This document shows positions 7,177 to 27,147 of a stretch of DNA of 30,554 nucleotides, in pieces; position 1 is the stretch's first letter, and each line of letters opens with the position of its first letter. A program made the position numbers and the translations under genes. Below the pieces are notes generated by a model. That model saw only the letters and a list, made by a program, of their open reading frames with translations. It did not search any database and had not been told where the DNA came from. This DNA is from a virus, in IMG/VR virus record IMGVR_UViG_3300048128_000091, positions 1-30,554 of that record; one strand, written 5' to 3'.

Positions 7177-7191
7177 GTAAGTTCGTCTTAC
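7177..7191 (-). repeat. Short inverted repeat in the leftward leader
   Basis: GTAAG-N5-CTTAC, a 5-bp stem with a 5-nt loop, between the leftward promoter and the ribosome binding site of the gene ending at 6951. It could fold in the mRNA leader. The stem is short, so the significance is uncertain. Confidence 0.35.
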
Positions 7192-7198
7192 ATAATTA

Positions 7199-7229
7199 AG
7201 ATTATCATATTGTTTCATAACGTGCAACA
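7199..7229 (-). promoter_or_regulatory. Leftward promoter with operator palindrome (copy 1 of 3)
   Basis: On the reverse strand TGTTGCACGTTATGAAACA (7229 to 7211) is an imperfect palindrome, TGTTGCA-N5-TGAAACA. It overlaps a possible -35 box TTGCAC (7227-7222); 17 bases later is a weak -10 TAATCT (7204-7199). The same arrangement occurs at 24089 and 27092. The -10 match is poor here, but the repeat of palindrome plus conserved leader makes a regulated promoter likely. Confidence 0.65.
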
Positions 7230-7265
7230 CAAATAACAAAGAATTGTATTATTTTTTTCAAATAG

Positions 7266-7294
7266 TTGTACATGGTGATCGCCTTTGGTATATT
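7266..7294 (+). promoter_or_regulatory. Candidate promoter for the capsid operon
   Basis: TTGTAC (7266-7271), a 17-base spacer and TATATT (7289-7294) form a good sigma70-type match just before the protease gene. The predicted start would lie near 7301, giving a leader of only about ten bases, which is a reason for caution. It would restart rightward transcription after the leftward cassette. Confidence 0.45.
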
Positions 7295-7311
7295 TGCAAG
7301 TGAGGATCTAT

Positions 7312-8142
7312 ATGGAAAAATACACTTATATTATGAAGAGAACAGAACCTGCTCCCAGTACAAAGGAGAAGGTTTCGTTTGTTGCGTCTTCTGCTACTCC
7401 TGATCGCTATGGTGACATCATCGATCAAAAGGGATGGATCTTAGAGAACTATAAGAAGAATCCTGTTGTATTGCTTAATCACGATTCAAACCAATTACCT
7501 ATAGGAAAAGGCAATGTTTACCTCCGAGATGACAAACTTGTTATTGATGTTGAGTTCGATTCAGAAGACGAAAGAGCAAAAGAAGTTGAAAGAAAAGCAA
7601 AAAAAGGATTCATGAATGCTGTTTCTGTTGGTTTTCGTCCACTTGAAAGCAAGTCAAGATCAGAACTCCCTGAAGATAATAAATATTATGGACAAAGAGG
7701 CATGTATTATAGTAAAGCAGAACTATTAGAGGTTTCAATCGTCACTATTCCAGCAAATGGAGAGGCTACAATGTTAGAACAGAAATTTTACAACGCAATG
7801 AAAGAAGAAATTCTTCGAGAAGTCAAAGAAGTTATGAAAGATACTTTGATTGTAAATAAGCACATCTTGAATGTAAGAGAAGAAGACGATCGCTATATCG
7901 TTGAGTTTGCAAAGCCTGAAATGGAAATGGAAGAAGAGGCCATGAAAGAGGAAGAAGAAAAGGCTATGGAAGAAGAGGAAGAAGAAAAAGAGATGGATTC
8001 TGAAGAAGAAGAAAAAGATATGGAAGATGAGGAAACAGAATCTTATCACGATGAAGAGGAAGAGAAGGAAGAAGAGGAAGTAGAAGAGAAAAGTTTTAAT
8101 GATTTAATAGAGGCTTTTGCCTATATCTTAACGTCAAAATAG
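7312..8142 (+). CDS. Prohead maturation protease (HK97 U35/S78 type) with acidic, scaffold-like tail
   Basis: 276 residues. The protease domain (about 1-165) carries S-A-T-P-D-R-Y-G-D-I-I-D near the N-terminus, the catalytic His candidate in N-H-D (H57) and the Ser candidate in A-V-S-V-G-F (S105), then L-L-E-V-S-I-V-T-I-P-A-N. These are hallmarks of HK97-type prohead proteases. From about residue 203 the chain is almost all Glu with Met, Lys and Asp, then ends in a short hydrophobic helix (FNDLIEAFAYIL). No separate scaffold gene is visible, so this tail, together with the N-terminus of the capsid protein, may serve that role. The ATG at 7312 follows GTGAGGA at good spacing and is preferred over the upstream TTG at 7285. 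Confidence 0.9.
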   Translation: MEKYTYIMKRTEPAPSTKEKVSFVASSATPDRYGDIIDQKGWILENYKKNPVVLLNHDSNQLPIGKGNVYLRDDKLVIDVEFDSEDERAKEVERKAKKGFMNAVSVGFRPLESKSRSELPEDNKYYGQRGMYYSKAELLEVSIVTIPANGEATMLEQKFYNAMKEEILREVKEVMKDTLIVNKHILNVREEDDRYIVEFAKPEMEMEEEAMKEEEEKAMEEEEEEKEMDSEEEEKDMEDEETESYHDEEEEKEEEEVEEKSFNDLIEAFAYILTSK

Positions 8143-8151
8143 GAGTAACCT

Positions 8152-9603
8152 ATGAACACCAAAATAGAAGAAGCAAAACGCCTTATAGCAGGCATTGTTT
8201 CACACCAAAAAAACACAGACGATCGTTTGAGAAACTTCGAGGATCAAGTAAAAGATCTTAAGAAGGCTCAAAAGTTACTTGCTGAAGGTCAAACTGCTGT
8301 AGTTAAGCCTGAAGTTGGAAACAATGATCATGCACTCAAGCAATACACAAAAGAAGATGGTTCTGTACAATGGAATACAGCAACAGTTTCTAAGAATATT
8401 ACTGGCCAAGGTCGAGTAAATATTCAAGAAAAAGGTCTTCTAGATGCTGATGTTTATGCTAACCAATGGCATGCTGATCTATGTGATATGGTACAACAAA
8501 GATCACTTGCTCGTATGATGATGAGAGATCCACATACACCAAAGGCTGATATGAAGTTGTATAACCATCTTCAAAAGGCTCCTTCTTTCATGAAAGATTC
8601 TGTCAACAAGGCTTTCACTGATAACGCAGGGGTTGGAGCAGAGTGGATTCCTGATCAATTCTCTACAGACTTGTATCAAACTTTTCAAGTTCCTCGTGGA
8701 TTGCGTGCTCTTCTTCCTTCTGTACAAATGGAAAGAGAAACTCTTCTTATTCCAAAGTTGAATAGAGGCGGTCGTCCTTACATCAAAGGTCAAATTACTG
8801 ATGATCTTGCTAAGTATCAAGCAAGCACAATCGAAACAGCACAGAAGACAGTTAGAGCGAAAGGTCTTGCTACTCTTATGAATATTGATGATGCGGCTGG
8901 AGAAGATTCTGCATTTGCTATCATTCCTGCTATGTCTCGACAAATCGCTCAAGATCTCGAAGATGCTTTTGAAGATGCTATGATCAATGGTGATTCTGCT
9001 GCTACTCATCAAGATGATATCTCAAACTGGAATATCAGAGAAAGATGGGGTGCTAGTGGGCTTGGATCTTCTGCTGATCATCGTCGTTTATTCCTTGGAA
9101 TGCGTGCAGCGGCTGCTGATAAGGGCTCTTCTGTTGATATCGGTGGCACTGCTATGACCTTCGCTGAATTCATGTCTGTTGTTTCAGAACTTGGAGAATT
9201 GGCTGTAGGAAATAAAGTTTGTGTTGTATCTCCTGAAGCACTTGTTGCGAACTTCTTACAACTTGATCAGGTTGTAACACTTGAGAAGTTTGGAACACAA
9301 GCAACAGTTCTAACAGGTCAACTTGCTAGTCTTGCTGGTATTCCTATTGTTATGTCTCGCTTTATGGGTGCAGATATGAATGCTTCAGGTCTTTATGACA
9401 ATGCTACCAAAGATAAAACAGGATTTTTAGTATTTAATACTGATTCGTGGTATCAATACTTGAGACGTCAAATCACTGTTGAAAGCGATAAGGACATCAC
9501 TTCAGGCGCTATTCAGATTGTATCTACAATGCGTGCAGTTATGGATTCTCCTGATGCTTCTTCAATCAAGAATGTAGCTTATGGTTACAACTTACCTATA
9601 TAA
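8152..9603 (+). CDS. Major capsid protein, HK97 fold
   Basis: 483 residues, directly after the protease and behind TAGGAGTAACCT. The N-terminal 70 residues are a charged coiled coil (I-E-E-A-K-R-L-I, R-L-R-N-F-E-D-Q-V-K-D-L), like the HK97 delta domain that is cut off during maturation. The rest fits the Phage_capsid family: W-I-P-D-Q-F-S-T-D-L-Y, R-E-T-L-L-I-P-K-L-N, the helix with Q-D-L-E-D-A-F-E-D-A-M-I-N-G-D, and near the end F-N-T-D-S-W-Y-Q-Y-L-R-R-Q-I-T-V-E-S-D-K-D. It forms the icosahedral shell. Placement between protease and connector genes is the standard order. Confidence 0.93.
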   Translation: MNTKIEEAKRLIAGIVSHQKNTDDRLRNFEDQVKDLKKAQKLLAEGQTAVVKPEVGNNDHALKQYTKEDGSVQWNTATVSKNITGQGRVNIQEKGLLDADVYANQWHADLCDMVQQRSLARMMMRDPHTPKADMKLYNHLQKAPSFMKDSVNKAFTDNAGVGAEWIPDQFSTDLYQTFQVPRGLRALLPSVQMERETLLIPKLNRGGRPYIKGQITDDLAKYQASTIETAQKTVRAKGLATLMNIDDAAGEDSAFAIIPAMSRQIAQDLEDAFEDAMINGDSAATHQDDISNWNIRERWGASGLGSSADHRRLFLGMRAAAADKGSSVDIGGTAMTFAEFMSVVSELGELAVGNKVCVVSPEALVANFLQLDQVVTLEKFGTQATVLTGQLASLAGIPIVMSRFMGADMNASGLYDNATKDKTGFLVFNTDSWYQYLRRQITVESDKDITSGAIQIVSTMRAVMDSPDASSIKNVAYGYNLPI

Positions 9604-9620
9604 TCTTTAAGGAGTTTTAA

Positions 9621-9989
9621 ATGTTTACTTTATCTTACAAAATCGAAGCGATCACAAATACAGATAAAACTAGAGCTATTGTTGCTCCTGTTGATTGTCG
9701 AGTTGAAGCCGCTTATATTATCCCTTCTGCTGATGTTGCAGATGGTGCTAGTAATAAGTTGGTCTGTGAAGTATATGCTGATAATGATACTGATGTATTG
9801 TTCAGTGTTGATTCAGATGCTGAAGCAGGTTTTTCTTTGAATGAGCCTGAAGAACTTGATCTTCAAGATGGTGTTTCAAAGAGATTTGAAGCAGGTCAGG
9901 CAATACAAGTTAAATGTGATGTAACAGGAACAATAGCATCTAATGATATTCTATTTGTTCTCAAGTGCGTTCCTGCTCGTGATATCTAA
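9621..9989 (+). CDS. Probable head decoration or stabilisation protein
   Basis: 122 residues, all predicted beta strands and no helix-rich part, with a sandwich-like pattern (A-I-V-A-P-V-D-C-R-V-E-A-A-Y-I, L-V-C-E-V-Y-A-D, I-Q-V-K-C-D-V-T-G-T). It sits directly after the capsid gene behind AAGGAGTTTTAA, where small decoration proteins usually lie. Capsid-surface binding is inferred from position and fold type. I do not recognise a specific family. Confidence 0.6.
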   Translation: MFTLSYKIEAITNTDKTRAIVAPVDCRVEAAYIIPSADVADGASNKLVCEVYADNDTDVLFSVDSDAEAGFSLNEPEELDLQDGVSKRFEAGQAIQVKCDVTGTIASNDILFVLKCVPARDI

Positions 9990-10001
9990 GGATTTAAATG
10001 A

Positions 10002-10613
10002 ATGAGTTTAGTATCTGTATCAGTATTGAAAGAGTATCTCCCTGAGATACAAGGATCTTCTATTGATGCAGATCTAACCTCACTTATTACCCGAATAGAG
10101 GGTTTTATTGCTCGCTACTTGGGTTTTCCTTTGTCTGATAGTGGAACCTCTTATACATTAGATCAATCAACATACACATTATTTGCTGACGGATCTATGT
10201 ACGGTCTTGAATATGTATTACAATCACCGATTAAACCGATCATCTCGATTACATCAATTCATTCTGATAGTGATCGGGTTTATGGTTCTGATACTTTGAT
10301 CGATTCATCTCAATATGAGATAGATAAGGAGTTAGGAAGAATTATCCTAGATGATACTTCTCCTGATACTTTTGATCGTGGTTTTCGTGCTATTAAGATT
10401 GTAGGCTCTTTTGGCTTTAGTACATCAAACCCACCTTCTGACCTTGTACATGCTATTTGTGTGTATTGTGCCCATTTACAACGTGCAAAGAGCAATCAGG
10501 GGAACGTATCTATTACGCAAAGAAATAGTACAGTTACATTATCACCTAGAACAATGCCTGAAGAGGTCAAAGAAATATTGAGAGGTTATAGAAATGTCTC
10601 AACTATCTTTTGA
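10002..10613 (+). CDS. Head-tail connector (adaptor) protein, HK97 gp6-like
   Basis: 203 residues. The N-terminal helices (V-S-V-L-K-E-Y-L-P, L-T-S-L-I-T-R-I-E-G-F-I-A-R-Y-L-G) are typical of the gp6/gp15-type adaptor that docks below the portal. A beta-containing middle (S-P-I-K-P-I-I-S-I-T-S-I, Y-E-I-D-K-E-L-G-R-I-I-L) and a final helical part (D-L-V-H-A-I-C-V-Y-C-A-H-L) follow the same plan. The ATG at 9998 stops early, so 10002 is the start; CTAAGGA lies upstream. It overlaps the next gene by 20 bases, which suggests coupling. Confidence 0.75.
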   Translation: MSLVSVSVLKEYLPEIQGSSIDADLTSLITRIEGFIARYLGFPLSDSGTSYTLDQSTYTLFADGSMYGLEYVLQSPIKPIISITSIHSDSDRVYGSDTLIDSSQYEIDKELGRIILDDTSPDTFDRGFRAIKIVGSFGFSTSNPPSDLVHAICVYCAHLQRAKSNQGNVSITQRNSTVTLSPRTMPEEVKEILRGYRNVSTIF

Positions 10614-10983
10614 TGATTTCCTTCAGCGAGTAAGAGAAGCAGATAACAGACTTCTCCTAGAGTTAGAGCGGGTACTTATTCGATCCGCTCTAAGAATGGA
10701 AAGAGATGGAAAGTTGAATGCTACATCCTATCCAAAAGTAAGAACAGGAAGACTTAGATCTTCTATCACAGGTCTAGTAGATGCTCCTCTAGGTTCTCCT
10801 AGGGTAGTTCTAAGAGCAGGCGGATCTACCTCAGGAACAGATGTAGATTATGCTGAATATGTTGAATTTGGTACTCGTTTTATCAAGCCTCGCCTGTTTT
10901 TGGGTCGGGCTGTCAACGCAGAATCTCAACGTCTTCCTGATAGGTTATCTTCTCTTCTTAATGTTGCTCTGGGAGCTGATTGA
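10594..10983 (+). CDS. HK97 gp10-like neck/tail completion protein
   Basis: 129 residues. An N-terminal helix with many Arg and Glu leads into K-V-R-T-G-R-L-R-S-S-I, then Y-A-E-Y-V-E-F-G-T-R and a short P-R-L-F-L-G-R-A-V. The V-R-T-G-R-L-R and Y-A-x-Y-V-E-F-G-T pair is the signature of the HK97-gp10 family, which closes the head-tail joint. Position between adaptor and terminator agrees. Its start lies inside the preceding gene and its stop overlaps the next start as ATGA/TGATG. Confidence 0.85.
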   Translation: MSQLSFDDFLQRVREADNRLLLELERVLIRSALRMERDGKLNATSYPKVRTGRLRSSITGLVDAPLGSPRVVLRAGGSTSGTDVDYAEYVEFGTRFIKPRLFLGRAVNAESQRLPDRLSSLLNVALGAD

Positions 10984-11435
10984 TGTCTGATATCATACAT
11001 GTACAAGTATTGTCTAGATTGAAGACCTTAGTAGCTGCTGATTTTTCCAGTGGTTTTTCAGGCCTTGATCTTTCTGATCGTGTTGTTATTGGTGCTGTTT
11101 TGAATGCTCCTCAGGTTCCTTCTGCTAGTATCGTCTTTATTGATACCATAGAACAACAGGGTAGGACGTTAGGCAGATATATAGGTGAATCTGTATATCA
11201 GATTGTATGTTATGCAGGTGGAGATGTTCTAGAATCTAGAATAAAGAATGCTATGAATCTAGCCGGTGATATTCAAAAAGCGATCACTTCAGATCGTACA
11301 CTAGGATTATCCGGCCTTACTCAAGATGTAATTGTTAATTTTACTGCTCTAGATGGTGAGGAATATGGTATATCTAACACAGGGATCTCATTATTAGAGG
11401 TGAGAGTATCCCATCAATCTCAATTCGGTGTCTAG
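10983..11435 (+). CDS. Probable tail terminator protein
   Basis: 150 residues from the ATG that overlaps the previous stop (TGATG); GGGAG lies upstream. A TTG one codon earlier is less likely. An N-terminal helix (I-I-H-V-Q-V-L-S-R-L-K-T-L-V) is followed by alternating strands and helices (V-Y-Q-I-V-C-Y-A-G, A-M-N-L-A-G-D-I-Q-K-A-I), like the gpU/DUF3168-type terminators that cap the tail tube under the neck. Position after gp10-like and before the tube gene supports this. No single diagnostic motif was seen. Confidence 0.65.
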   Translation: MSDIIHVQVLSRLKTLVAADFSSGFSGLDLSDRVVIGAVLNAPQVPSASIVFIDTIEQQGRTLGRYIGESVYQIVCYAGGDVLESRIKNAMNLAGDIQKAITSDRTLGLSGLTQDVIVNFTALDGEEYGISNTGISLLEVRVSHQSQFGV

Positions 11436-12191
11436 ATGAGTTGGTATAATTCAGATTTCAAAAGAAGACTTCCTTTGGTTATAGATACATCTACAACTTC
11501 AAAGGGTACAATAGAATTCTCTTTTGTTGTTCCTGAGGATTATGATGACTTTTGGAACAATGTTAGAACAGATGGATTTGATGTTGTGCTTGCTGATAAG
11601 AATGGAGAGGCATTCACATTTCAAAGATTCACATGGAATGCAACAACAAGATCAAGTCTTTTTAGAGTTGCAGGGTTCTCAATGACAGAGGGTAACGTTA
11701 TGCACGTTATCTATATCTATTGGGATAATCCTGATCAAAGTACAGATTTATCTAGTAGTGTTACAACAACCTCACCAAAAACAACATTTGCTTATCTAGG
11801 CGCTCCCTTTGGGAATGTTGTCAACTTTCAAACAAGATCTGGATTGTCTACTGTTCCTACTACAATATTCCAGAAAGATCCTGATGAAAAAATAGATATA
11901 TGGTTCCCTATCTCTCAGTTACTTGCTCCTCGTGCTTTGCCATATAATGAAAGGCTAGATTTCAAAGGTCTAGATTATATAGATGTAAATGTACTAGATT
12001 CTTTAGATGCAAATCAAACAGCAATGTATGCTCTAGGAGAAACGAGAATAATTTCAGGTTGGGTTCGTGCTAGAATACAAGCAGGATCAGATGATACTGA
12101 TTATGTTGTTAGAATTAAAGTTTTTACTTCAGATAATGAAGTTTTCATATTATCGTGTTTATTACAAGTTAGAAAATTATTACCTACATAG
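11436..12191 (+). CDS. Virion protein with DUF2341-like beta domain
   Basis: 251 residues, starting directly after the previous stop with only a weak Shine-Dalgarno site. The first half has W-Y-N-S-D-F-K-R-R-L-P-L-V-I-D, then D-D-F-W-N-N-V-R-T-D-G-F-D-V-V-L-A-D-K-N-G and I-Y-I-Y-W-D-N-P. This resembles DUF2341 (W-x-Y-R-R-x-I-x-I-x-x and D-G-x-D-I-x-x-x-D), a beta-sandwich often found with lectin domains. The second half is also beta-rich and I do not recognise it. Position before the tube gene suggests a tail or neck surface protein. Carbohydrate binding is possible but unproven. Confidence 0.55.
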   Translation: MSWYNSDFKRRLPLVIDTSTTSKGTIEFSFVVPEDYDDFWNNVRTDGFDVVLADKNGEAFTFQRFTWNATTRSSLFRVAGFSMTEGNVMHVIYIYWDNPDQSTDLSSSVTTTSPKTTFAYLGAPFGNVVNFQTRSGLSTVPTTIFQKDPDEKIDIWFPISQLLAPRALPYNERLDFKGLDYIDVNVLDSLDANQTAMYALGETRIISGWVRARIQAGSDDTDYVVRIKVFTSDNEVFILSCLLQVRKLLPT

Positions 12192-12200
12192 GAGGATATT

Positions 12201-13163
12201 ATGCCTTTAGAATTTGGACGTGGTGCGTTTATCAAGTTAGGAGAAGAAGCAACTTATGGAACAATAGCTGCTTCTATGCCAGTTGATAACAGAATCATAT
12301 CAGCATCTTTTCAGAAAACACAAGAGAAGGAAAGAAAAACACATCTATCTCAATCAGGTGCAGGAGGATTTCAGAATGGTCATTTTGATGCCTTCTTAAA
12401 TGTTGGAGGTTCTATTGATCTTCCTTTGCTCTATGAAGGGACAGGAATGCTTTTGAAGGCTGCAATTGGTGCGGTAACAACTACAGATCTAGGAGCATCT
12501 GAAGATCCTAGATATCAGCATGATTATGAACCTTCTTCTGATGGTGAACTTCCATCTTTATCTATAGGCCTTCAAAGAGGTACAGGATCAAAAGAGATCT
12601 TCTTAGGTTGTAAGGTTGCAACTATGGGAATCTCAGGAACGGCAGGAGAAGAGGTAACTGCATCTTTTGAAGTTATTGCTCAAAATGCTGATGCTCGTGC
12701 TGCTGCTTATACTTCTTCCTTTGGTTCAGGTCGTCAAATCTTTCATTTTGAAAGTGGGGATCTAAGTTATAACTCTGCTACATACAAGATGAAATCTTTT
12801 GAGTTGTCACTTGATAACAAACTTGAAAGAAGGAATGTATTAGGAGATAAGAAAACCTTAGAGCCTATCACTAACGACGTAAAGGATATTACTTTATCAG
12901 TTACTCTAGAGATGCAAGATAATGTTTTATATACAGCTTATCTAGACGGTACTCAATCAGATGTAGAGTTCACATTTACAAACTCAGATGGTGACTTGTG
13001 CAATGTATTGATCCGTAATTGCTACATTACAGATTATGATGATGCCGTTAATACCTTTGGAGCCTTAGAGAGAACTATGACCTTTGTAGGAGAAGGTGAT
13101 GCATCTAATGAGCCTATCAGAATCAGAATAACAAATAATCAATCTTCTGGTGTTGCTAATTAA
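12201..13163 (+). CDS. Major tail tube protein
   Basis: 320 residues behind a strong TAGGAGG. The opening F-G-R-G-A-F-I-K-L-G-E-E-A-T-Y-G-T is characteristic of siphovirus tube proteins. Further matching parts are G-G-S-I-D-L-P-L-L-Y-E-G-T-G, P-S-L-S-I-G-L-Q-R-G-T and K-M-K-S-F-E-L-S-L-D-N-K-L-E, which follow the beta-barrel plan of stacking tube rings. It should form the tail tube around the tape measure. It lies just before the chaperone and tape measure genes. Stop and next start overlap (TAATG). Confidence 0.88.
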   Translation: MPLEFGRGAFIKLGEEATYGTIAASMPVDNRIISASFQKTQEKERKTHLSQSGAGGFQNGHFDAFLNVGGSIDLPLLYEGTGMLLKAAIGAVTTTDLGASEDPRYQHDYEPSSDGELPSLSIGLQRGTGSKEIFLGCKVATMGISGTAGEEVTASFEVIAQNADARAAAYTSSFGSGRQIFHFESGDLSYNSATYKMKSFELSLDNKLERRNVLGDKKTLEPITNDVKDITLSVTLEMQDNVLYTAYLDGTQSDVEFTFTNSDGDLCNVLIRNCYITDYDDAVNTFGALERTMTFVGEGDASNEPIRIRITNNQSSGVAN

Positions 13164-13417
13164 TGATCTCAAAGTTGATTAGAACAATATTGAAGAAACT
13201 AGAATGCAATCTCACAGATCTAGAAAGATATAGTGGGATTGAATATTCTATTTTGTGGAGAATGCTTAATAACAATCAAGATCCAACAGATTGGGAGGTT
13301 CAACAATTAGAGAAGGTATTATCTGAAAAAACAGATTATAAACAATCATACATAGATAAAAGATTAAAAAAATACAAGGCAGGTGTATATTATGGAAATA
13401 TTAAAGGAGATCGCTGA
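13163..13417 (+). CDS. Small XRE-type helix-turn-helix protein inside the tail operon
   Basis: 84 residues. The pattern L-T-D-L-E-R-Y-S-G-I-E-Y-S-I-L-W-R-M-L then D-W-E-V-Q-Q-L-E-K-V-L fits a Cro/XRE HTH fold at about residues 12-52, followed by a basic tail. The start codon overlaps the tube gene stop (TAATG), and the 3' end overlaps the chaperone start by 26 bases, so it is translated as part of the late operon. A DNA-binding regulator is unusual here. It could instead be a structural helper with a coincidental HTH-like layout. Confidence 0.65.
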   Translation: MISKLIRTILKKLECNLTDLERYSGIEYSILWRMLNNNQDPTDWEVQQLEKVLSEKTDYKQSYIDKRLKKYKAGVYYGNIKGDR

Positions 13418-13916
13418 AGCATCAACATTTCAAGTAGAATGTTTTGACGGTAAATTACTAATAGAAGGAAGAATCTTAACCGCTCCAGAAATAGAGCAGA
13501 TCGGTCTAGGTTCTTCTCTTTTGGCTCAGGAGGTCTTAATCTCCAATAAGCAACAAGGTCTGAATACAATCGATCAGATAAGAGAAAAAGCAGATAAAGA
13601 AGGCATGGAAGGTCTAGATGAAACAGAACTTCTTAGACTTCTCGACTTTGCAAAGTCGATCAGGCCTGAAACAATGGCAAGGATATCAGAGGATCAAGAT
13701 AAGATACTTTGTAAGGTTATCAAAAGAGCCTCTCAAGATGGTGTCTCGTGGGAGAACATTACTCTTTGTCATGCTATGGAACAAATGAATCCAGATCAAA
13801 ATGTTCTTTGGGTGGGAGTATTCACATCAGAAGACCGTAACAACATCATAAATAAGGCTATGCAAGGACAACAGGAGGCAATAGAACGGCTTCAACGATT
13901 TCAAAGCAGATCCTAA
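13392..13916 (+). CDS. Tail assembly chaperone, short form (gpG-like)
   Basis: 174 residues from the ATG at 13392, which follows AGGTG by 8 bases; the GTG at 13383 lies within that Shine-Dalgarno site and is less likely. Early strands (F-Q-V-E-C-F-D-G-K-L-L-I-E-G-R) are followed by a mostly helical acidic protein. Position directly between tail tube and tape measure is that of gpG/gpGT chaperones, which coat the tape measure before tube assembly. The stop at 13914-13916 is immediately followed by a 70-codon open frame without a start codon. See 13885-14127. Confidence 0.75.
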   Translation: MEILKEIAEASTFQVECFDGKLLIEGRILTAPEIEQIGLGSSLLAQEVLISNKQQGLNTIDQIREKADKEGMEGLDETELLRLLDFAKSIRPETMARISEDQDKILCKVIKRASQDGVSWENITLCHAMEQMNPDQNVLWVGVFTSEDRNNIINKAMQGQQEAIERLQRFQSRS

Positions 13917-14127: not shown

Positions 14128-14147
14128 TAGGTTGCAAAGAGGTAGTT

Positions 14148-16517: not shown

Positions 16518-16518
16518 T

Positions 16519-19814: not shown

Positions 19815-19825
19815 AGGAGAATATA

Positions 19826-19996: not shown

Positions 19997-20013
19997 CAGA
20001 AATAGGTTCTTAA

Positions 20014-20598
20014 ATGATTAGATACTCAATAGATAATCCTCCTGTAATTGATAGATGTATTGATCTAGGGTTTGCATGGTTCAAAGGCAAGTACGATCTT
20101 AATATTATCGCTTGTAGGAATATGTTAGAAAGACCTGATACTTTTCAAGATACTATTCATGTTGTATATTGGGATCAGAAGTGGATAGAATATGTCTTCC
20201 CTTGTACAACTCACGCAGGTCAACACTATCTTTTGAATCCATCGAGATCTTTAGGTGTTGCAATACTCAAACATGATCATCAATATAGATCTTCTTTTAA
20301 GATTGGGATGCGTTCTAGTGGGTATGAATGCCTTGTTCCCTGCAAAGATATTCCTGTTTGGAGAGATGGAGATCGTGATGAGGTTATAGATTATGGAGGA
20401 GCAGATCACGATTCAGCAGGAATACAAATTCATAGAGCAAACTCTTCTAACACTTCTCTAAGAATAGGAAGATATTCAGCGGGTTGTGTGGTACTACAGA
20501 CAGGATTTAATGATTTTATGGATCTATGTCACAAGCAAGTTCAAAGCAGAAAAGGATCAACATTTACACTAACAATATTAAAAGGAATGCACTTATGA
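20014..20598 (+). CDS. Putative lysis enzyme with YkuD (L,D-transpeptidase)-like catalytic signature
   Basis: 194 residues. Near the C-terminus, H140 is followed after 14 residues by S155-A-G-C158, matching the H-x14-17-S-x-G-C pattern of YkuD-type L,D-transpeptidases, where Cys is the nucleophile. Upstream are P-C-T-T-H-A-G-Q-H-Y-L-L-N-P and a D-x-D-R-D region. It resembles phage proteins I recall in lysis regions of unrelated phages. Position after the tail genes and before two holin-like membrane proteins fits an endolysin that cleaves cross-links in host peptidoglycan. There is no signal peptide. Substrate and reaction direction are inferred. The stop overlaps the next start (ATGA). Confidence 0.6.
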   Translation: MIRYSIDNPPVIDRCIDLGFAWFKGKYDLNIIACRNMLERPDTFQDTIHVVYWDQKWIEYVFPCTTHAGQHYLLNPSRSLGVAILKHDHQYRSSFKIGMRSSGYECLVPCKDIPVWRDGDRDEVIDYGGADHDSAGIQIHRANSSNTSLRIGRYSAGCVVLQTGFNDFMDLCHKQVQSRKGSTFTLTILKGMHL

Positions 20599-20987
20599 AA
20601 ATACCTTATGCAACACTTACAAAAGTCTTGATGGATCAAATCTATAATACATACATTCAAATTAGAGCTGCACAGGATTCTGATTCTGATGGAGGAAAAA
20701 AAGTAACCAGAAAAGAAATCTGGGATCTTGTATCAAACTTCATTCTTGTAACAGGGATGAAAATGGAAGAACTCATATCTTTAAACAATGGAATGAAGTA
20801 TAACGTGCGTTTTCGGTGGAAAGTCATACAAGTTATTGTAAAAAGTCTTAATAATTTACCAGAAGCATTTGAAGAAGCAAAAGCCGATGATCAGAGAATA
20901 GATAAGCAAGAAGCAATAGAGATAATAGGTCAAATATTGAAAAAATCAATTCCTGAGATTCTTAATCTAGCAGAGGATGAATTATAA
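20595..20987 (+). CDS. Small helical protein with EF-hand-like calcium loop
   Basis: 130 residues from the ATG at 20595, which overlaps the preceding stop and follows AAAAGGA; upstream ATGs in the frame lie inside the lysis gene. Residues 28-33 (D-S-D-S-D-G) followed by G-K-K-V-T-R-K-E look like an EF-hand loop with two extra residues. A second, degenerate loop-like stretch is at D-D-Q-R-I-D-K-Q-E-A-I-E-I. The rest is helical. A link to lysis control is suggested only by its neighbours; calcium binding is unproven. Confidence 0.6.
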   Translation: MKIPYATLTKVLMDQIYNTYIQIRAAQDSDSDGGKKVTRKEIWDLVSNFILVTGMKMEELISLNNGMKYNVRFRWKVIQVIVKSLNNLPEAFEEAKADDQRIDKQEAIEIIGQILKKSIPEILNLAEDEL

Positions 20988-20994
20988 TAGAGGC

Positions 20995-21222
20995 ATGGAT
21001 ATCTCAACTCTTATCAATGCCGTTACAGGTCAGTTTGGTGCTTTAGTGCTTGCTTGTGTTGTTTTGTATAACTTTATGCAACAACAGAAACAACACATGG
21101 AGAGGCTATATAAGGATAACAAAGAAGATAGAGAACTCTACAGAACTACTCTAACAAATCTCTCACAGAAGATCGATAGAATAGGAGAGGATGTAGCAGA
21201 GATCAAAAAGGAGTTGCGATGA
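20995..21222 (+). CDS. Holin-like small membrane protein (first)
   Basis: 75 residues if started at the ATG 20995, or 81 from the ATG at 20977; neither has an ideal Shine-Dalgarno spacing, so the start is open. One hydrophobic segment (about 12-28, F-G-A-L-V-L-A-C-V-V-L-Y-N-F) is followed by a long charged helix (residues 30-75, coiled-coil type). This layout is that of small holin-like or BhlA/XhlA-type proteins with the tail in the cytoplasm. The neighbouring putative endolysin supports a lysis role. The stop overlaps the next start (ATGA type). Confidence 0.6.
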   Translation: MDISTLINAVTGQFGALVLACVVLYNFMQQQKQHMERLYKDNKEDRELYRTTLTNLSQKIDRIGEDVAEIKKELR

Positions 21223-21479
21223 TGGAGATGATATATGATATTCTTCTTAATGCGGGCCCTATTGGATTGCTTGCTTTATATGCAATATATTCCAATTCTC
21301 AAAGTGAAAAAAGGATTGAAATCTTACTGGAGAAGAAGGAAGAAAAAGAGGAACAGATCAGAGAAAGATGGATCGGAGTTGTTGAAAAAGTACAGAAGGA
21401 AAGAGATGAACTAGAGAAGGATATATCTAGACGATTAGAACATATTGAAAAGATTCTGGAGAAGAAGCATGAAAAATGA
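21219..21479 (+). CDS. Holin-like small membrane protein (second)
   Basis: 86 residues, with AAGGAG before ATGATG and start overlapping the previous stop. A single hydrophobic segment (about residues 5-24, I-L-L-N-A-G-P-I-G-L-L-A-L-Y-A-I) is followed by a strongly charged coiled coil to the end. It has the same plan as the preceding gene without clear sequence identity, so the two may form a holin and antiholin or a holin pair. Spanin function is less likely, because there is no lipobox. Confidence 0.6.
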   Translation: MMEMIYDILLNAGPIGLLALYAIYSNSQSEKRIEILLEKKEEKEEQIRERWIGVVEKVQKERDELEKDISRRLEHIEKILEKKHEK

Positions 21480-21741
21480 AAAAGAAAACCGTGCATGTGC
21501 TTTAGAACTGAACAATGTAATCTATGAACTTCAGGCAAAGGGCCATTCTGATAATGCAATAGCAAACGGAGTTCTATTTGCTTTGAGCATTCATATTATC
21601 AATTCTAGATTCTCTGTAAATGAAATTATCGAACAACTAACCAAACTTTTCCACAACATAAAAGCAGAACTGGGAAAACTAGAAGACGATGATCAAATCA
21701 ATATACAACAAACAAAGCCTATAAATGAACAATGGGATTAG
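21469..21741 (+). CDS. Small helical protein of unknown function (end of lysis operon)
   Basis: 90 residues from ATG 21469, seven bases after GGAG and overlapping the preceding gene by 11 bases. It is helical (E-L-N-N-V-I-Y-E-L-Q-A-K-G-H-S-D-N-A-I-A-N-G-V-L-F-A-L) with an acidic end. There is no clear membrane segment and no family recognised. It is the last gene before the terminator at 21812. Confidence 0.65.
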   Translation: MKNEKENRACALELNNVIYELQAKGHSDNAIANGVLFALSIHIINSRFSVNEIIEQLTKLFHNIKAELGKLEDDDQINIQQTKPINEQWD

Positions 21742-21811
21742 AAGTAGATCGCTTCTTTAAATAAAGATCAACGATTGCTCCTAAAAAAAACTTCTCCTGC
21801 TTTTGGTTTTT

Positions 21812-21837
21812 CCTCCTTCTCCTTTGGGAGGTTTTTT
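21812..21837 (+). terminator. Rho-independent terminator after the lysis genes
   Basis: CCTCC (21812-21816) pairs with GGAGG (21827-21831) around a 10-nt loop, followed directly by six T. The stem is short but GC-rich and the T run is well placed. It separates the lysis cluster from the next transcription unit. Confidence 0.65.
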
Positions 21838-21854
21838 CTTTTTGTTGCTTGCTT

Positions 21855-21883
21855 TTGTAGTTTACAATATATTGTACTATAAT
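21855..21883 (+). promoter_or_regulatory. Sigma70-type promoter with a perfect palindrome in the spacer
   Basis: TTGTAG (21855-21860), a 17-base spacer and a perfect TATAAT (21878-21883). The spacer contains the 14-bp perfect palindrome TACAATATATTGTA (21863-21876), a possible binding site for a regulator. It lies just after a terminator and 22 bases before the tail tip gene at 21906, so it likely drives 21906-23973. Confidence 0.7.
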
Positions 21884-21905
21884 ATCAAAAAGCAGGAAAA
21901 GAGAT

Positions 21906-22316
21906 ATGGGAATGAGTGACGCGAGATCCACAGGATCGGTTTCTGGTATAGGCACAACATACGATCTAACAAAGAAGATAGAGATTGATCTAGGATATAC
22001 TCCTAGAACTGCTCGTTTTGTTGCTCACGTTTCACTTGTTAATATACAGTGTTCTTCTTTGGCTCCTGCTGATAAGCCTGAAGAGATAACTATCAGAATA
22101 TCAGAGGATGAAGAAGGCGATCAGATGGTTCTCACAGATACAGTTTCAACCCTTGACCATGGTCTTACAACTGAAACAAAGGCAACGGCAATCTATAGAA
22201 TAGATGGAATTATATCTTTAGATCGTGCTGATACGGTTTATTTGCACGTCAAAACAGACAAAGGGACACTAACAGTAGATCAGGCCGTAATCACTTACAA
22301 CGATGGTAAGAGATAG
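21906..22316 (+). CDS. Beta-rich virion protein, probably tail tip or fibre attachment
   Basis: 136 residues behind AGGA. It opens with a Gly/Ser-rich stretch (S-T-G-S-V-S-G-I-G-T) and continues as beta strands (I-E-I-D-L-G-Y-T-P-R-T-A-R-F-V-A-H-V, D-T-V-Y-L-H-V-K-T-D-K-G-T-L-T). I recognise no named family. It is first in a three-gene unit ending with a tail fibre, which suggests a host-binding or baseplate part. Confidence 0.55.
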   Translation: MGMSDARSTGSVSGIGTTYDLTKKIEIDLGYTPRTARFVAHVSLVNIQCSSLAPADKPEEITIRISEDEEGDQMVLTDTVSTLDHGLTTETKATAIYRIDGIISLDRADTVYLHVKTDKGTLTVDQAVITYNDGKR

Positions 22317-22318
22317 AT

Positions 22319-22576
22319 ATGAGTATAGCAAACGCATTCAATAGAAGAGGAGGAACAGGGCCCGATTCATCAGGCTCCTTTGATGGTACGATCAAAGAGG
22401 TATCATTCACAAATCAAACCTCTCTTAATATCTCTCACAATTTTGAAAATTATCCTACAGTTATCATTCTAGATACTTCCGGAAATCTCGTACATGCACA
22501 AGTTCAACATACATCTAGAAGCAATATATTGATAAATTTTTCCTCTTCTCTTTCAGGAACTGTAATTATTAGATAA
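22319..22576 (+). CDS. Small tail protein with the same C-terminal domain as the next tail fibre
   Basis: 85 residues; start two bases after the preceding stop with a weak Shine-Dalgarno site. A flexible Gly/Ser N-terminus (R-R-G-G-T-G-P-D-S-S-G-S) leads into a beta domain with L-N-I-S-H-N-F, D-T-S-G-N-L-V-H-A-Q-V and L-S-G-T-V-I-I at the end. The last 60 residues match the C-terminus of the fibre at 22618 (D-S-S-D-N-L-V-H-A-E-V, L-T-G-V-T-V-V). A small receptor-binding or trimer-forming tip domain is likely. Confidence 0.65.
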   Translation: MSIANAFNRRGGTGPDSSGSFDGTIKEVSFTNQTSLNISHNFENYPTVIILDTSGNLVHAQVQHTSRSNILINFSSSLSGTVIIR

Positions 22577-22617
22577 TATAGTAGTGACTTTTCAACCCTA
22601 ACAAAAGGATAAATACT

Positions 22618-23973
22618 ATGCCATTTAATAATTATGCACCTCAATACATCTTTAAAGGACAAGTTCAGAGCGATACCGCACCTAGTGCGAACAATGACCT
22701 TGTGCGTAAACAAGATGTATCAGGTCTTTCTTTCATTTCCTCGATTGCTTCAGGTTCTTCTTCTTACCTATCTGTAAATGCTTCAGGAGAATTGTCTGTA
22801 GAATCTCTATTGATCTCTGATGTAACTGTCAATGGAACAGAAACATCTTTGGCAAACTTCATCTCTAATGAATCCTCTGCTGCTGCTGCTCTTAAGAAAG
22901 GCGACTTCTTAGTATTGACCGCTGCAACAGGCGGGGCAGAAACTTACATTGTTTCAGGTGCTGATGGTTCTGTAGCAGGCAATTACACACAAGTAGAATC
23001 TGGATTGACTTCTGCTGAGATCGTTGCACATCTTTCAGGTGGAACAGGAATTAATATTGCTGCAAACGGTACAATCTCTTTTAATGGAGATACAGACGAT
23101 GTTTCAGAAGGATCTACAAATCTTTATTATACACAAGCAAGATTCAACTCTGCATTTGGTGCAAAGAGTACATCTGATCTTTCAGAAGGATCTAATCTAT
23201 ATTACACAGATGCAAGATCTAGAGCAGCTGTTTCTGCTGAATCAGGCGGATGTTTATTGTATGCTTCTGCTACAGGTCAATTCAGAATATCTATCAGTAA
23301 TTCAGGCGGTCTATCTACTTCTGGCGCTTTGGCCGTACAATATGATAATAGCACAATTGGATTAAATGGATCTAACCAGTTAGAGTTCAAAGGCGATTCT
23401 GATGATGTTTCAGAAGGTTCTTCTAACTTGTACTTTACTGATGCTCGTGCCCGTGGTGCATTCTCTGCAGGTGCAGGAATAACAATCAGCGGAGCAGGTG
23501 AGATCGCTTCTTCAATCACACAATACACTGATTCTAATGCTCGTGCAGCTGTTTCAGGTGGTGATGGACTTGATTATAACTCTTCAACAGGTGTCTTCTC
23601 TTTGGATCTCAAAGCGAACTCCGGCCTTGCTATTGATGCAGGAGAATTAAAGGTTGAGTTAGGTGAGGGTCTAGGATTTGCACCTGATGGAGTTATCGAA
23701 GTTGAAACTGGTGCAGGTCTTGAAATCGATTCTGGTGATCAATCTGTAAAAGTAGATGATGATTACTTCAGAAAAGAATTCACTGCTCAATCATTCACGG
23801 CAAACACTGCAAAAACAATTAATCATGCACTAGGTAAAAAATACGTTCATGTATCTGTTTATGATTCTTCTGATAACCTCGTACACGCAGAAGTATCTCT
23901 CACTGATGCAAACAATCTTACAGTTACTACAAGTGATGCCTTGACAGGTGTTACCGTAGTTGTTAGTATTTAA
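22618..23973 (+). CDS. Tail fibre with S-E-G-S-x-N-L-Y-Y-T repeats
   Basis: 451 residues, AAAGGAT upstream. The N-terminus (Y-A-P-Q-Y-I-F-K-G) probably attaches to the tail. The shaft holds the repeat D-V-S-E-G-S-x-N-L-Y-Y-T-x-A-R at about residues 159-180, 187-206 and 263-283, plus a shorter form (Y-T-D-S-N-A-R-A-A-V-S) near 302. This repeat is common in trimeric phage fibres. The remaining shaft is Gly, Ser and Ala rich. The last 60 residues form the beta domain shared with 22319-22576. Role: host recognition. A terminator follows. Confidence 0.88.
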   Translation: MPFNNYAPQYIFKGQVQSDTAPSANNDLVRKQDVSGLSFISSIASGSSSYLSVNASGELSVESLLISDVTVNGTETSLANFISNESSAAAALKKGDFLVLTAATGGAETYIVSGADGSVAGNYTQVESGLTSAEIVAHLSGGTGINIAANGTISFNGDTDDVSEGSTNLYYTQARFNSAFGAKSTSDLSEGSNLYYTDARSRAAVSAESGGCLLYASATGQFRISISNSGGLSTSGALAVQYDNSTIGLNGSNQLEFKGDSDDVSEGSSNLYFTDARARGAFSAGAGITISGAGEIASSITQYTDSNARAAVSGGDGLDYNSSTGVFSLDLKANSGLAIDAGELKVELGEGLGFAPDGVIEVETGAGLEIDSGDQSVKVDDDYFRKEFTAQSFTANTAKTINHALGKKYVHVSVYDSSDNLVHAEVSLTDANNLTVTTSDALTGVTVVVSI

Positions 23974-24035
23974 GAGTTAGTTATTGCAATCTCCTTTCCT
24001 TTGGGATGTGATTACTCCAATTAATTATGGTTAGG

Positions 24036-24063
24036 CTCCTCTGGATTATCTAGAGGAGTTTTT
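24036..24063 (+). terminator. Rho-independent terminator after the tail fibre
   Basis: CTCCTCT (24036-24042) and AGAGGAG (24052-24058) form a perfect 7-bp stem with a 9-nt loop, followed by five T. It ends the fibre transcription unit before the operator-promoter at 24089. Confidence 0.9.
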
Positions 24064-24088
24064 CTTTTTGTTGTTTTTATAAAATAAA

Positions 24089-24119
24089 TGTTGCATAACG
24101 TGAAACATATGGTATTTAT
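24089..24119 (+). promoter_or_regulatory. Rightward promoter with operator palindrome (copy 2 of 3)
   Basis: TGTTGCATAACGTGAAACA (24089-24107) is the palindrome TGTTGCA-N5-TGAAACA, with 6 of 7 arm positions matching. It contains a possible -35 TTGCAT (24091-24096). The -10 is poorly defined: ATTTAT at 17 bases or TATTTA at 16. The leader that follows ends in CTAACCAACTAACCAAAGGAAAAACAATG. The repeat of the palindrome at 7211 and 27092 supports a regulatory site. Confidence 0.7.
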
Positions 24120-24151
24120 TAATTACTAACCAACTAACCAAAGGAAAAACA

Positions 24152-24433
24152 ATGACAGTAGAAACAACAACTGCACAACCTACAAACGCAATAACAGGAA
24201 AAGCATACACTGAAGGCAATATCTTTAGACTTCTCGACACTCCATTTATGGATCAAAGATGGGCCACATTCAAACAATGGAAGGATGCAGGCTACAAAGT
24301 TATGAAGGGTTCAAAGGGTACTGAGTTGATCAAAATCGTATCAGTTACAGATAAGAATGATCCAGAGAAAAAGAAGAGTGTTCCTAGAAGATTCTTTGTT
24401 TTCAATATTGATCAAGTAGAAGAAAGAGCATAA
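24152..24433 (+). CDS. Standalone ArdC N-terminal domain protein (antirestriction / ssDNA-binding type)
   Basis: 93 residues. The chain follows the ArdC N-terminal domain: N-A-I-T-G-K-A-Y, G-N-I-F-R-L-L, Q-R-W-A-T-F-K-Q-W-K-D-A-G-Y-K-V, K-G-S-K-G-T-E and R-R-F-F-V-F-N-I-D-Q-V-E. In plasmid ArdC this domain binds single-stranded DNA and precedes a metallopeptidase-like domain, which is absent here. It is the first gene of a regulated operon, with a strong leader, and a hairpin terminator follows. Likely roles are ssDNA protection in replication or antirestriction; the sequence does not decide between them. Confidence 0.8.
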   Translation: MTVETTTAQPTNAITGKAYTEGNIFRLLDTPFMDQRWATFKQWKDAGYKVMKGSKGTELIKIVSVTDKNDPEKKKSVPRRFFVFNIDQVEERA

Positions 24434-24449
24434 TCTAACCAACCAACAT

Positions 24450-24475
24450 GGGAGGGTAACACCTCCCTTTTTTTT
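24450..24475 (+). terminator. GC-rich hairpin with T run, identical stem-loop to 6919-6936
   Basis: GGGAGGGTAACACCTCCC (24450-24467) forms a 6-bp GC-rich stem with a 6-nt loop, followed by eight T. It looks like a full terminator or a strong attenuator between the ArdC-like gene and the rest of the operon. No new promoter is evident before 24492, so partial read-through is likely. The same 18 bases occur on the reverse strand at 6919-6936. Confidence 0.85.
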
Positions 24476-24491
24476 ATTAAAGGAGTACAAT

Positions 24492-24809
24492 ATGATTACA
24501 TTCACATATCAGTTTGATCAAAATGGTGTATGGATTTACAAATCTAGTATAGGAGAAAAGGAATCTAGTACACACTATGATAATCCAAAGAACGCAGCAG
24601 AAGTTTGTTATCTTCTTCTTACAGGCGTTAATTTAATGCTTATGAATAATGAAGAATGCACAGAGAAGAATCCAGAAGGAGATCACAACGACCTTCTTAA
24701 GATTGCAATCAATTATAACTATGTAAAGGATCAGTATCCTCTTTTCGAGTCTGTATTCTATGAAGAGATCAATCTAGCTATACTTATTAAAGGAGGTATA
24801 AATGAATAA
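24492..24809 (+). CDS. Small protein of unknown function upstream of the replication initiator
   Basis: 105 residues behind AAAGGAG. N-terminal strands with aromatic residues (F-T-Y-Q-F-D-Q-N-G-V-W-I-Y-K-S) are followed by helices (A-A-E-V-C-Y-L-L-L-T-G-V-N-L-M-L-M). No family recognised. It overlaps the replication gene by 8 bases, which suggests coupled translation and a possible role in replication. Confidence 0.7.
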   Translation: MITFTYQFDQNGVWIYKSSIGEKESSTHYDNPKNAAEVCYLLLTGVNLMLMNNEECTEKNPEGDHNDLLKIAINYNYVKDQYPLFESVFYEEINLAILIKGGINE

Positions 24810-25794
24810 TCAATTTGCTATTATCTATAAAGAAGAGATTGCACTTCTAAGAGAGTGTAAGAGTGTGACAAAGTCTGTATATATGGCTTTGTCTTATCAC
24901 TTCAAGACAGAAGAGAAAGAAGGGGTTAGAACTCGGTTCTGTTGCCCTTCGTATGATGTAATATCAGATATTACTGGATACTCAAAAGGAAGCATAAAAA
25001 GAGCAATTAGAGAACTCAAAGATCAGGGAATACTAACTAGCAAAAAAAGAATGGGGGCCTCTTCTTTGATCTATGTTGAGTACAAAATAGATACTCAAGA
25101 GGGAACAACAGTAGATCCCACAGAAGGAACAACAGTAGAGCCTTCTATGGGATCACATGTTAAGCCCACAGAAGGATCACATGTTAAGCCCTCGAAGGGA
25201 ACAACAGTAGAGCCCACAATTAACAACAAAGTTAACAACAAAGAATTAACAACAAATATTAACAGATTGATATTAACCGATAAGCAAAAAGAAATAATAA
25301 ACAAATTCTCTTTCTTCTTTGGATGGAAAGGAAAGAACTATATTGAAGACCTTGAAAAGGTTCTTCCTGCAGATTGTTCTGATTATTTGACAGATGAGTT
25401 AATGCTGATCGGTGCATACAACCTTAGAAGAATGAAAGAAGGCAAAGGAGCTTGGACAGGAAATTATATAGTTACAGGGATCTCTCGATGGATTGAAGGC
25501 GGCAAAGGGAAATCATCAAAGCCAAACATACATACATCTATGCTTGTTGAAGAGGTACATGAGAAGATTCTGCAATCTAAGAAGCAGGAAGAGCCAAAAA
25601 CAGAAGAAACCTTCTCTAATTGTGCAAATACAGAAGAAGGTCAAGAGGACTTTGATTGGTTACTAGATCACAACATTAAGCAATACAAATCATATCCTTC
25701 AATATCTAATAAGACTTTGGTGGAAAATATGAAGACCTCACCACATTGCCATGATCTCAACCTTCAAAAGATTAAAACAGCTATAGGAGAATAA
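24802..25794 (+). CDS. Phage replication initiator / replisome organizer with winged-helix domain
   Basis: 330 residues behind AAAGGAGG. The N-terminal 95 residues look like a winged helix: V-Y-M-A-L-S-Y-H-F, then C-C-P-S-Y-D-V-I-S-D-I-T-G-Y-S-K-G-S-I-K-R-A-I-R-E-L. This is typical of phage replication organizers and RepA-like initiators. Residues 101-140 are five tandem 8-residue units (G-T-T-V-x-P-T-E or G-S-H-V-K-P-x-x), a linker type common in these proteins. The C-terminal part is helical, with W-K-G-K-N-Y-I-E-D-L and A-Y-N-L-R-R-M-K-E-G, reminiscent of helicase- or loader-binding domains. With no phage DNA polymerase or helicase gene seen, it would recruit the host replisome, probably to an origin inside this gene. 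Confidence 0.75.
   Translation: MNNQFAIIYKEEIALLRECKSVTKSVYMALSYHFKTEEKEGVRTRFCCPSYDVISDITGYSKGSIKRAIRELKDQGILTSKKRMGASSLIYVEYKIDTQEGTTVDPTEGTTVEPSMGSHVKPTEGSHVKPSKGTTVEPTINNKVNNKELTTNINRLILTDKQKEIINKFSFFFGWKGKNYIEDLEKVLPADCSDYLTDELMLIGAYNLRRMKEGKGAWTGNYIVTGISRWIEGGKGKSSKPNIHTSMLVEEVHEKILQSKKQEEPKTEETFSNCANTEEGQEDFDWLLDHNIKQYKSYPSISNKTLVENMKTSPHCHDLNLQKIKTAIGE
25102..25221 (+). repeat. Five tandem 24-nt repeats inside the replication gene
   Basis: Units start at 25102, 25126, 25150, 25174 and 25198. Units 1, 2 and 5 begin GGAACAACAGTAGA; units 3 and 4 begin GGATCACATGTTAAGCCC. They encode 8-residue units in the linker. Either simple protein linker repeats or iterons of the replication origin. 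Confidence 0.9.
25220..25265 (+). repeat. TTAACAACAAA direct repeats, candidate replication origin
   Basis: Three exact copies of TTAACAACAAA at 25220-25230, 25232-25242 and 25246-25256, and a partial copy TTAACAG at 25259-25265, spaced 12-14 bases. The stretch is very AT-rich and directly follows the 24-nt repeats. In lambda the origin iterons lie inside the initiator gene O; the same arrangement is proposed here. Confidence 0.65.
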
Positions 25795-25795
25795 T

Positions 25796-26116
25796 ATGAA
25801 GAGTTTATCTAATTACATCAAAGCAGAATACCCTGAGAAACTAGAAGAATATGAAAGACTTGAAGCAGAAGCAAAGAAGAAATTACAAAGTGATCTTGCT
25901 CTTTCTGTTGGTGATTTGGTGCGGTTCAGGAAAAAAGAATTGTCTATGGTTCAAATTGTTGGTAAGATATTATCAATCAAAGAAAACACTTATCATGTCA
26001 AGACGTTTTTTCCGTTCGGTGGTATTGATGAATTCTATCTTGATATCAGGGAGATTAAGAAGTATGATACAACATCGTATAGCAGCAGCAATAAAGAAGA
26101 TCGAGACAATCAATGA
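25796..26116 (+). CDS. Small protein of unknown function, possible SH3-like fold
   Basis: 106 residues behind ATAGGAG. An N-terminal charged helix (L-E-E-Y-E-R-L-E-A-E-A-K-K-K-L) is followed by a beta part with V-G-D-L-V-R-F-R-K, I-V-G-K-I-L-S-I-K-E-N-T-Y-H-V-K. This layout resembles small SH3/KOW-type barrels. I do not recognise the family. It overlaps the HNH gene by 53 bases. Confidence 0.6.
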   Translation: MKSLSNYIKAEYPEKLEEYERLEAEAKKKLQSDLALSVGDLVRFRKKELSMVQIVGKILSIKENTYHVKTFFPFGGIDEFYLDIREIKKYDTTSYSSSNKEDRDNQ

Positions 26117-26729
26117 CAGTATCAACTTCTATGAACTTGCAAAGAAGGAAGAAGAGGAGAATCTAGAGAACCTTATCTCTTCCTATTTGCAGGAATGCAC
26201 AGCAGAAGAAGATCGTGATGGTGTTTCTAGCCTTATCAGATATCTATACTGGTATACAGACATGAAACCCAATAGAATCAGCGAGATCACGCAAATAGAT
26301 AATCGAACACTTACAAAGAGGGCCGGGTCTCTTATTCTTTCAGCAAAATGTTCTAGATGTGGATCTACTTATGCAAAAGAGAAAACATCTAGAACAGATC
26401 AGGGTTCTTCTATTTGTCCTAACTGCATTCATGCTGATGCTCTAGATTCACATAAGGCATTTTTAGAGGATTGGATTGATAACACATGGGCCACTCATAA
26501 GAATCCAAAGATGGATCAAGGAACATATGCTGCTTATTTACATTCTGCACACTGGAAGAAGACACGACATGAAGCACTACAGAGAGCAGGATATAGATGT
26601 CAAGCCTGTAGCACCAAAGAAGAGATCTTAGATGTACACCATAACAGTTATGAAAGACTAGGAGCAGAAGAGCCTCAGGATCTGATCGTTCTTTGTCGTA
26701 CTTGCCATGGAAGGGTTCATAACAAATGA
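26064..26729 (+). CDS. HNH endonuclease with HTH-like and zinc-ribbon parts
   Basis: 221 residues from the ATG at 26064, preceded by GGGAGATTAAGAAG. The frame is open further upstream, but that part lies inside the previous gene. Middle: an HTH-like region (R-I-S-E-I-T-Q-I-D-N-R-T-L-T-K-R), then a zinc ribbon with C96-x2-C99 and C118-x2-C121. C-terminus: HNH nuclease with C-Q-A-C, D-V-H192-H193-N-S-Y-E-R-L-G, and L-C-R-T-C-H-G-R-V-H. It cuts DNA. Early-region position argues against a packaging role. It could act in replication, recombination or as a selfish homing enzyme. Confidence 0.8.
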   Translation: MIQHRIAAAIKKIETINDSINFYELAKKEEEENLENLISSYLQECTAEEDRDGVSSLIRYLYWYTDMKPNRISEITQIDNRTLTKRAGSLILSAKCSRCGSTYAKEKTSRTDQGSSICPNCIHADALDSHKAFLEDWIDNTWATHKNPKMDQGTYAAYLHSAHWKKTRHEALQRAGYRCQACSTKEEILDVHHNSYERLGAEEPQDLIVLCRTCHGRVHNK

Positions 26730-27073
26730 GTTGCTTAATCTCTACAAAGCGAAAAGAAGAAGACGGTACATATTCTGTTTTATGTACTTGTTTATCTTGT
26801 GGATATAGTGCTAGGGTTGATAACAATTTTGAAGTGCTTATTTGCTTATCTTGTGGCTCAAAGTTGTATAAAACAAAGTATCTATCACAGAAGGCACTGA
26901 AACAAAGAATCAAAGAACTAAGAACAGAACTTGAGCAGGAACTTGATGCAACTGCTAGAACTGTTGTTGCAGGTTTCTCTCCTGCAAAGCCCTTTCAATC
27001 GTACAGGAAGAACAAACAACGATTAAAAAGGATCGCAGCTCTTCCAGGAAAGATCAAAAAAGATAAGAAATAA
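26726..27073 (+). CDS. Zinc-ribbon protein with basic tail
   Basis: 115 residues, start overlapping the HNH stop (ATGA). A four-cysteine ribbon C22-x2-C25 and C40-x2-C43 is followed by a helix with alternating charge and a basic tail rich in Lys and Arg. It has the look of a nucleic-acid binding or transcription-associated factor. It is the last gene before the operator at 27092. No family name can be given. Confidence 0.7.
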   Translation: MSCLISTKRKEEDGTYSVLCTCLSCGYSARVDNNFEVLICLSCGSKLYKTKYLSQKALKQRIKELRTELEQELDATARTVVAGFSPAKPFQSYRKNKQRLKRIAALPGKIKKDKK

Positions 27074-27091
27074 TAGTTTTTTCTCTTTTAT

Positions 27092-27122
27092 TGTTGCATA
27101 GTATGAAACATTTAATTATACT
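27092..27122 (+). promoter_or_regulatory. Rightward promoter with operator palindrome (copy 3 of 3)
   Basis: TGTTGCATAGTATGAAACA (27092-27110) carries the same palindrome arms (TGTTGCA-N5-TGAAACA). Here the promoter match is strong: -35 TTGCAT (27094-27099), 17 bases, -10 TATACT (27117-27122). It lies 26 bases upstream of the gene at 27148 and its TAACCAAAGGAG leader. Confidence 0.8.
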
Positions 27123-27147
27123 ATGAATATAACCAAAGGAGAAAACA

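Follow-up and report, generated by a model that had tools for sequence, protein, structure and literature searches.

The three promoters of an uncultivated phage considered here each carry a copy of the same 19-bp palindrome, which raises the question of whether one regulator governs all three transcription units, which protein this would be, and how it would act. The DNA analysed, referred to throughout as the window, is IMG/VR virus record IMGVR_UViG_3300048128_000091 (positions 1 to 30,554; 30,554 b), and its virion and lysis genes encode a terminase, a portal/MuF fusion, a prohead protease, a capsid protein, a tail tube protein, a tape measure protein and an endolysin-like protein. The record ends (1-143 and 30412-30554) share a 143-b overlap in which five positions differ (~96% identity), and we therefore take the record to represent an essentially whole, circularly permuted phage genome, apparently closed from slightly different variants at the joint; operators beyond the record are not expected given this overlap. 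A ParB-like/DNA methyltransferase gene spans the joint and is interrupted only by the record ends. Residues about 431-802 of the 1089-aa portal-MuF fusion (2907-6176) match proteins of unrelated phages, such as Salinibacter phages (43% identity), and this middle region is apparently an inserted domain.

The sequence-only reading had placed palindromes of the form TGTTKCA-N5-TGMAACA at three positions, and all three proved exact: OL at 7211-7229 on the minus strand (TGTTTCATAACGTGCAACA, or TGTTGCACGTTATGAAACA when read leftward), OE1 at 24089-24107 on the plus strand (TGTTGCATAACGTGAAACA), and OE2 at 27092-27110 on the plus strand (TGTTGCATAGTATGAAACA). No further site with 0 or 1 mismatch was found in the window, and across 840 permutations of the half-site letters the number of exact copies in the window averaged 0.0036, with the real motif alone reaching three. 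When up to three mismatches were allowed, 33 weak matches were recovered compared to 7.9 expected in the window; because identical half-sites set at control spacings of 2, 8, and 11 gave about 20-22 matches each, we attribute this excess mainly to a codon-phase effect and do not read it as a sign of additional operators or of a stoperator network. The centre ATAACG that two of the sites were said to share is common to them on the plus strand, but along the direction of transcription their centres are opposite.

The proposed overlap with promoter elements also held, as all three palindromes contain a TTGCA-type -35 box, and 16-17 bases separate this box from a -10-like hexamer further along. 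Read from the sequence, these promoters are PL (TTGCAC-17-TAATCT; 7199-7227, minus strand), which precedes a leftward accessory unit and whose -10 and leader are kept in relatives; PE1 (TTGCAT-16-TATTTA; 24091-24118, plus strand), which has a weak -10 and is followed by ACTAACCA repeats and AAAGGA; and PE2 (TTGCAT-17-TATACT; 27094-27122, plus strand). A leader of the form TAACCAAAGGA followed by ATG was likewise present at all three. Leaders in the window (24118-24145 and 27122-27140) and at loci L081-L101 often consist of ACTAACCA repeats before AAAGGA that are kept across operator classes, and these units are a possible translational or other signal. The palindromes were also considered as RNA hairpins, but this reading was rejected since each site lies at about -36 to -18, upstream of the start, and is hence untranscribed.

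The leftward unit, on the minus strand, comprises a 67-aa gene in a variable accessory slot (6951-7154), a second gene that is 87-96% conserved in relatives (6524-6898), and a third (6207-6527). Early unit 1 (24152-27073, plus strand) has genes at 24152, 24492, 24802, 25796, 25851, and 26726, among them an ArdC N-terminal-like antirestriction protein (24152), an O/DnaD-like replication initiator (24802), an HNH protein (25851), and a zinc-ribbon-like protein (26726). Early unit 2 (27148-29370, plus strand) consists of small genes, including one for a SWIM zinc-finger protein (28471), and its last gene (29113-29370) encodes an 85-aa candidate repressor with an XRE/lambda-repressor-like helix-turn-helix (HTH), hereafter HTH 29113. 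This is the last plus-strand gene after PE2 and is followed by a likely intrinsic terminator (29394-29423, plus strand; AAAAGGCTAGA-TTTAT-TCTAGTCTTTTTTT), with an equivalent stem-loop in relatives; judging from gene order, the regulator gene would thus lie within the PE2-driven operon. The slot behind the leftward promoter (window 6207-7229; L081-L101) has its first gene swapped among relatives for at least nine different small genes. ArdC-like antirestriction genes fill this slot in L091, L097, and L099, whereas the window ArdC gene sits behind PE1, and the slot is likely a place to look for anti-defence genes. A PADLOC defence scan returned nothing convincing.

To examine these promoters in relatives, we gathered several dozen related IMG/VR contigs with terminase, HTH, zinc-ribbon, SWIM, and protease queries. 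Gene order is conserved among them, and their leftward promoter scaffold is nearly invariant (…CAATTTGAAAATATTATTACAATATATTGTTATTTA-19-mer-…TATAAT…ACTAACCAACCAAAGGA), with the 19-mer alone varying. Their three promoters carry 19-bp palindromes with a common TGT…ACA frame and different inner bases, which fall into at least six specificity classes (A to F). Class A (TGTTKCA) is found in the window, L082, and the leftward site of G008; its close variant A' (TGTTRCA/TGTTACT) in G003, G006, G008, G035, G036, L091, L097, L099, and L100; class B (TGTTGA: TGTTGATTTATTTTCAACA or TGTTGAAAAAGAATCAACA) in G004 and G005; class C (TGTTTA: TGTTTACTTTTTTTAAACA and variants) in G009, G010, G012, G013, G031, L095, and L098; class D (TGTTGTTTTTTTAATAACA) in L090, L110, L113, and L114; class E (TGTATCA/TGTAACA) in G001, G030, and probably L086; and class F (TGTAGCA) in G014. 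The unrelated contigs L107, L108, L115, L116, L118-L120, and L122-L125 matched the scaffold pattern by chance and were dropped on context.

Many relatives thus keep the genes and lack TGTTKCA, an outcome that the sequence-only reading had named as evidence against its proposal of a common regulator. At the position of OE1, however, palindromes of other classes are present (G001, G003-G006, G008, G009, and G012), the OL and OE2 positions are replaced in the same way, and the replacement comes with a different HTH allele, which strengthens the claim of one regulator. Each genome holds to one class: when sites at these promoters are counted, with A and A' pooled as one class, all nine contigs with at least two sites agree (9/9; 1.7 expected, 0/200,000 shuffles). 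The motif search therefore shows that all three promoters switch operator class in concert, which strongly supports a single regulator for the three units. There are three to five operators per genome in the window and relatives, all in promoters. G003 has five, two of them before additional genes, and it appears that extra genes enter the regulon together with a promoter-operator module. In the same genome (L045:9397-9415, G003:23397) the HTH gene is immediately followed by a further promoter with an operator, which drives a gene that is absent there in the window. At the second early promoter of G030 (L072:1563-1602), two 19-bp operators lie next to each other with their centres 21 bp apart, a pairing that suggests cooperative binding. 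A distant relative, G015 (54% terL), has neither a homologue of HTH 29113 nor a repeated 19-bp palindrome.

The three HTH proteins offered earlier as candidate regulators, at 1169, 13163, and 29113, behave differently in this comparison, as 29113 covaries with operator class and the other two do not. Among homologues of HTH 29113 the two ends are conserved and the middle varies. Operator distance correlated with HTH 29113 distance when each of four neighbouring proteins was partialled out (partial Mantel r 0.56-0.73, p<=0.0005), in a set that contains only about seven distinct HTH alleles and many related contigs, such that permutation p-values overstate independence; given HTH 29113, the corresponding tests of operators against the control proteins were null (p 0.38-0.94). 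The AF2 model of HTH 29113 has five helices in a helix-turn-helix bundle (pLDDT 85), with a predicted recognition helix at residues 31-38 (RTTIFRWK). At residue 36, R goes with C at half-site base 6 (36/36) and K, L, or M with A (24/24), while at residue 35, F or Y goes with T at half-site base 4 (50/50) and H or G with A (10/10). Without exception among 60 half-sites, these pairings are a strong hint of a code linking residue 35 to base 4 and residue 36 to base 6. The covariation is loose between A and A', as G008 has a window-type leftward operator (TGTTGCATAACGTGAAACA) alongside an A'-type HTH. Class D operators had no linked HTH in the contigs at hand, and the L032 HTH (Y35/V36) is no more than a candidate for this class. 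Best Foldseek matches of HTH 29113 were XRE-type but weak (best PDB E 0.17, TM about 0.5), and scores against Pfam HTH models were all below the gathering cut-off; we therefore call it XRE-like and do not place it in a named family. Against phage records, HTH 29113 had no real relative (best E 0.7) and the terminase distant relatives only.

Considering these results together, we regard it as probable (roughly 77%) that HTH 29113 is a Cro-like autorepressor of PL, PE1, and PE2 that shuts off early expression by delayed feedback. The protein, probably as a dimer, would bind the 19-bp palindromes at the three promoters and, lying over the -35 region, would block RNA polymerase. Being encoded last in the PE2 unit, its product would build up late, and once accumulated it would close not only the unit that encodes it but also the one for replication and antirestriction and the leftward accessory one, such that delayed negative autoregulation would end early expression. 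With the repressor gene placed last behind PE2 and a likely terminator after it, this is the simplest circuit. The sequence comparison establishes the sites, their promoter placement, the concerted class changes, and the covariation with this protein; binding, dimerisation, repression, and timing we infer.

Several other explanations have to be weighed against this one. It is unlikely, in our estimate, that HTH 29113 is instead a CI-like immunity repressor and the phage a temperate one that persists plasmid-like without integrating, in which holding the three lytic promoters off in dormancy and superinfection immunity would select new specificities. The divergence into six or more specificity classes while the promoter scaffold stays conserved does resemble immunity groups (compare PMC6550527), but neither the window nor eight relatives yielded an integrase, serine recombinase, resolvase, ParA, or S24 repressor, and the phage is not demonstrably temperate on this gene content. 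Searches of the genome contigs of 84,980 genomes, moreover, recovered no relative of HTH 29113 and a single relative of the terminase, 26% identical. The HTH gene is also terminal in the very unit that it would have to repress, and no divergent maintenance promoter was seen. A role for HTH 29113 as an activator, CII-like or acting as both activator and repressor in the manner of restriction-modification controllers, and recruiting polymerase through the palindrome, is still less probable. Weak matches to Phage_CII and a CII-like PHROG, the location of the palindrome around the -35, and the controller proteins such as C.Esp1396I among the best fold neighbours would all agree with activation, and activator help at PE1 may be conceivable because its -10 is poor. 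At the same promoter, however, the operator lies over the -35 in most genomes, the window and classes B and C among them, but over the -10 in G001, G003, G006, and G008, a placement that fits repression and not an activator needing a fixed position, and several relatives' promoters have near-consensus -35 and -10 elements. Lambda CII sites are direct repeats (TTGC-N6-TTGC), unlike the inverted repeats of the window, and no palindrome accompanies the methyltransferase gene that follows further down in the window.

That a host transcription factor binds the sites is very unlikely because operator classes switch: the palindrome itself is all that would point to such a factor, and at least six operator classes occur at the same promoters with a matching change in a phage protein. 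We give even less credence to the proteins at 13163 and 1169. The former has a weak Cro/C1-type match, but its identity reaches 86-90% in G004 (class B) and G009 (class C) and yet only 39% in G003 (class A'), whose class is nearly that of the window; the latter shows 96-97% identity in G005 (class B) and G009 (class C), and is probably the small terminase since its gene lies directly before and overlaps terL.

With an autorepressor at 29113, a group of uncultivated phages gains a control circuit that is concrete and can be tested, together with a natural series in which six or more operator classes are paired with their cognate recognition helices on a single scaffold. The phage repressor regulon is well supported, ordinary in kind, and unusual in the readability of this natural specificity series. 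The series raises the question of why repressor specificity diversifies, as it does in temperate phages, without visible lysogeny genes. One tentative reading, about which we are doubtful, is that strictly lytic phages evolved many mutually non-recognising repressor/operator specificities, that Cro-like shut-off would act as immunity between co-infecting lytic phages, and that accessory genes would become part of the regulon either by bringing a promoter module of the matching class along or by inserting behind one.

Among known systems, restriction-modification controller (C) proteins such as C.Esp1396I are the weak best fold neighbours of HTH 29113; they too are small autoregulating HTH proteins, and here too a methyltransferase follows. 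The window methyltransferase, however, lies beyond the likely terminator, no operator was found before it at 29371-29437, no endonuclease partner was seen in the window, and the regulon consists of phage early genes. The lambdoid cI/Cro systems (lambda, 434, and P22 c2) offer small lambda-repressor-like HTH proteins, palindromic operators overlapping early promoters, a recognition helix that sets specificity, and heteroimmune variants. The window differs from them in having a single regulator gene, which closes an early unit, with no divergent cI/cro pair and no integrase, and in having single operators at three scattered promoters in place of tripartite or multipartite ones; none of the three sites has a divergent second regulator beside it, and no S24 repressor was found. 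The Cluster A mycobacteriophages are temperate phages with 20-30 asymmetric stoperators of 13-14 bp per genome, mostly outside promoters (PMC6550527), in contrast to the symmetric 19-bp sites of the window group, which number three to five per genome and all lie in promoters. In both, each genome has a single repressor and a handful or more of dispersed sites, and repressor and motif diverge together (PMC6550527).
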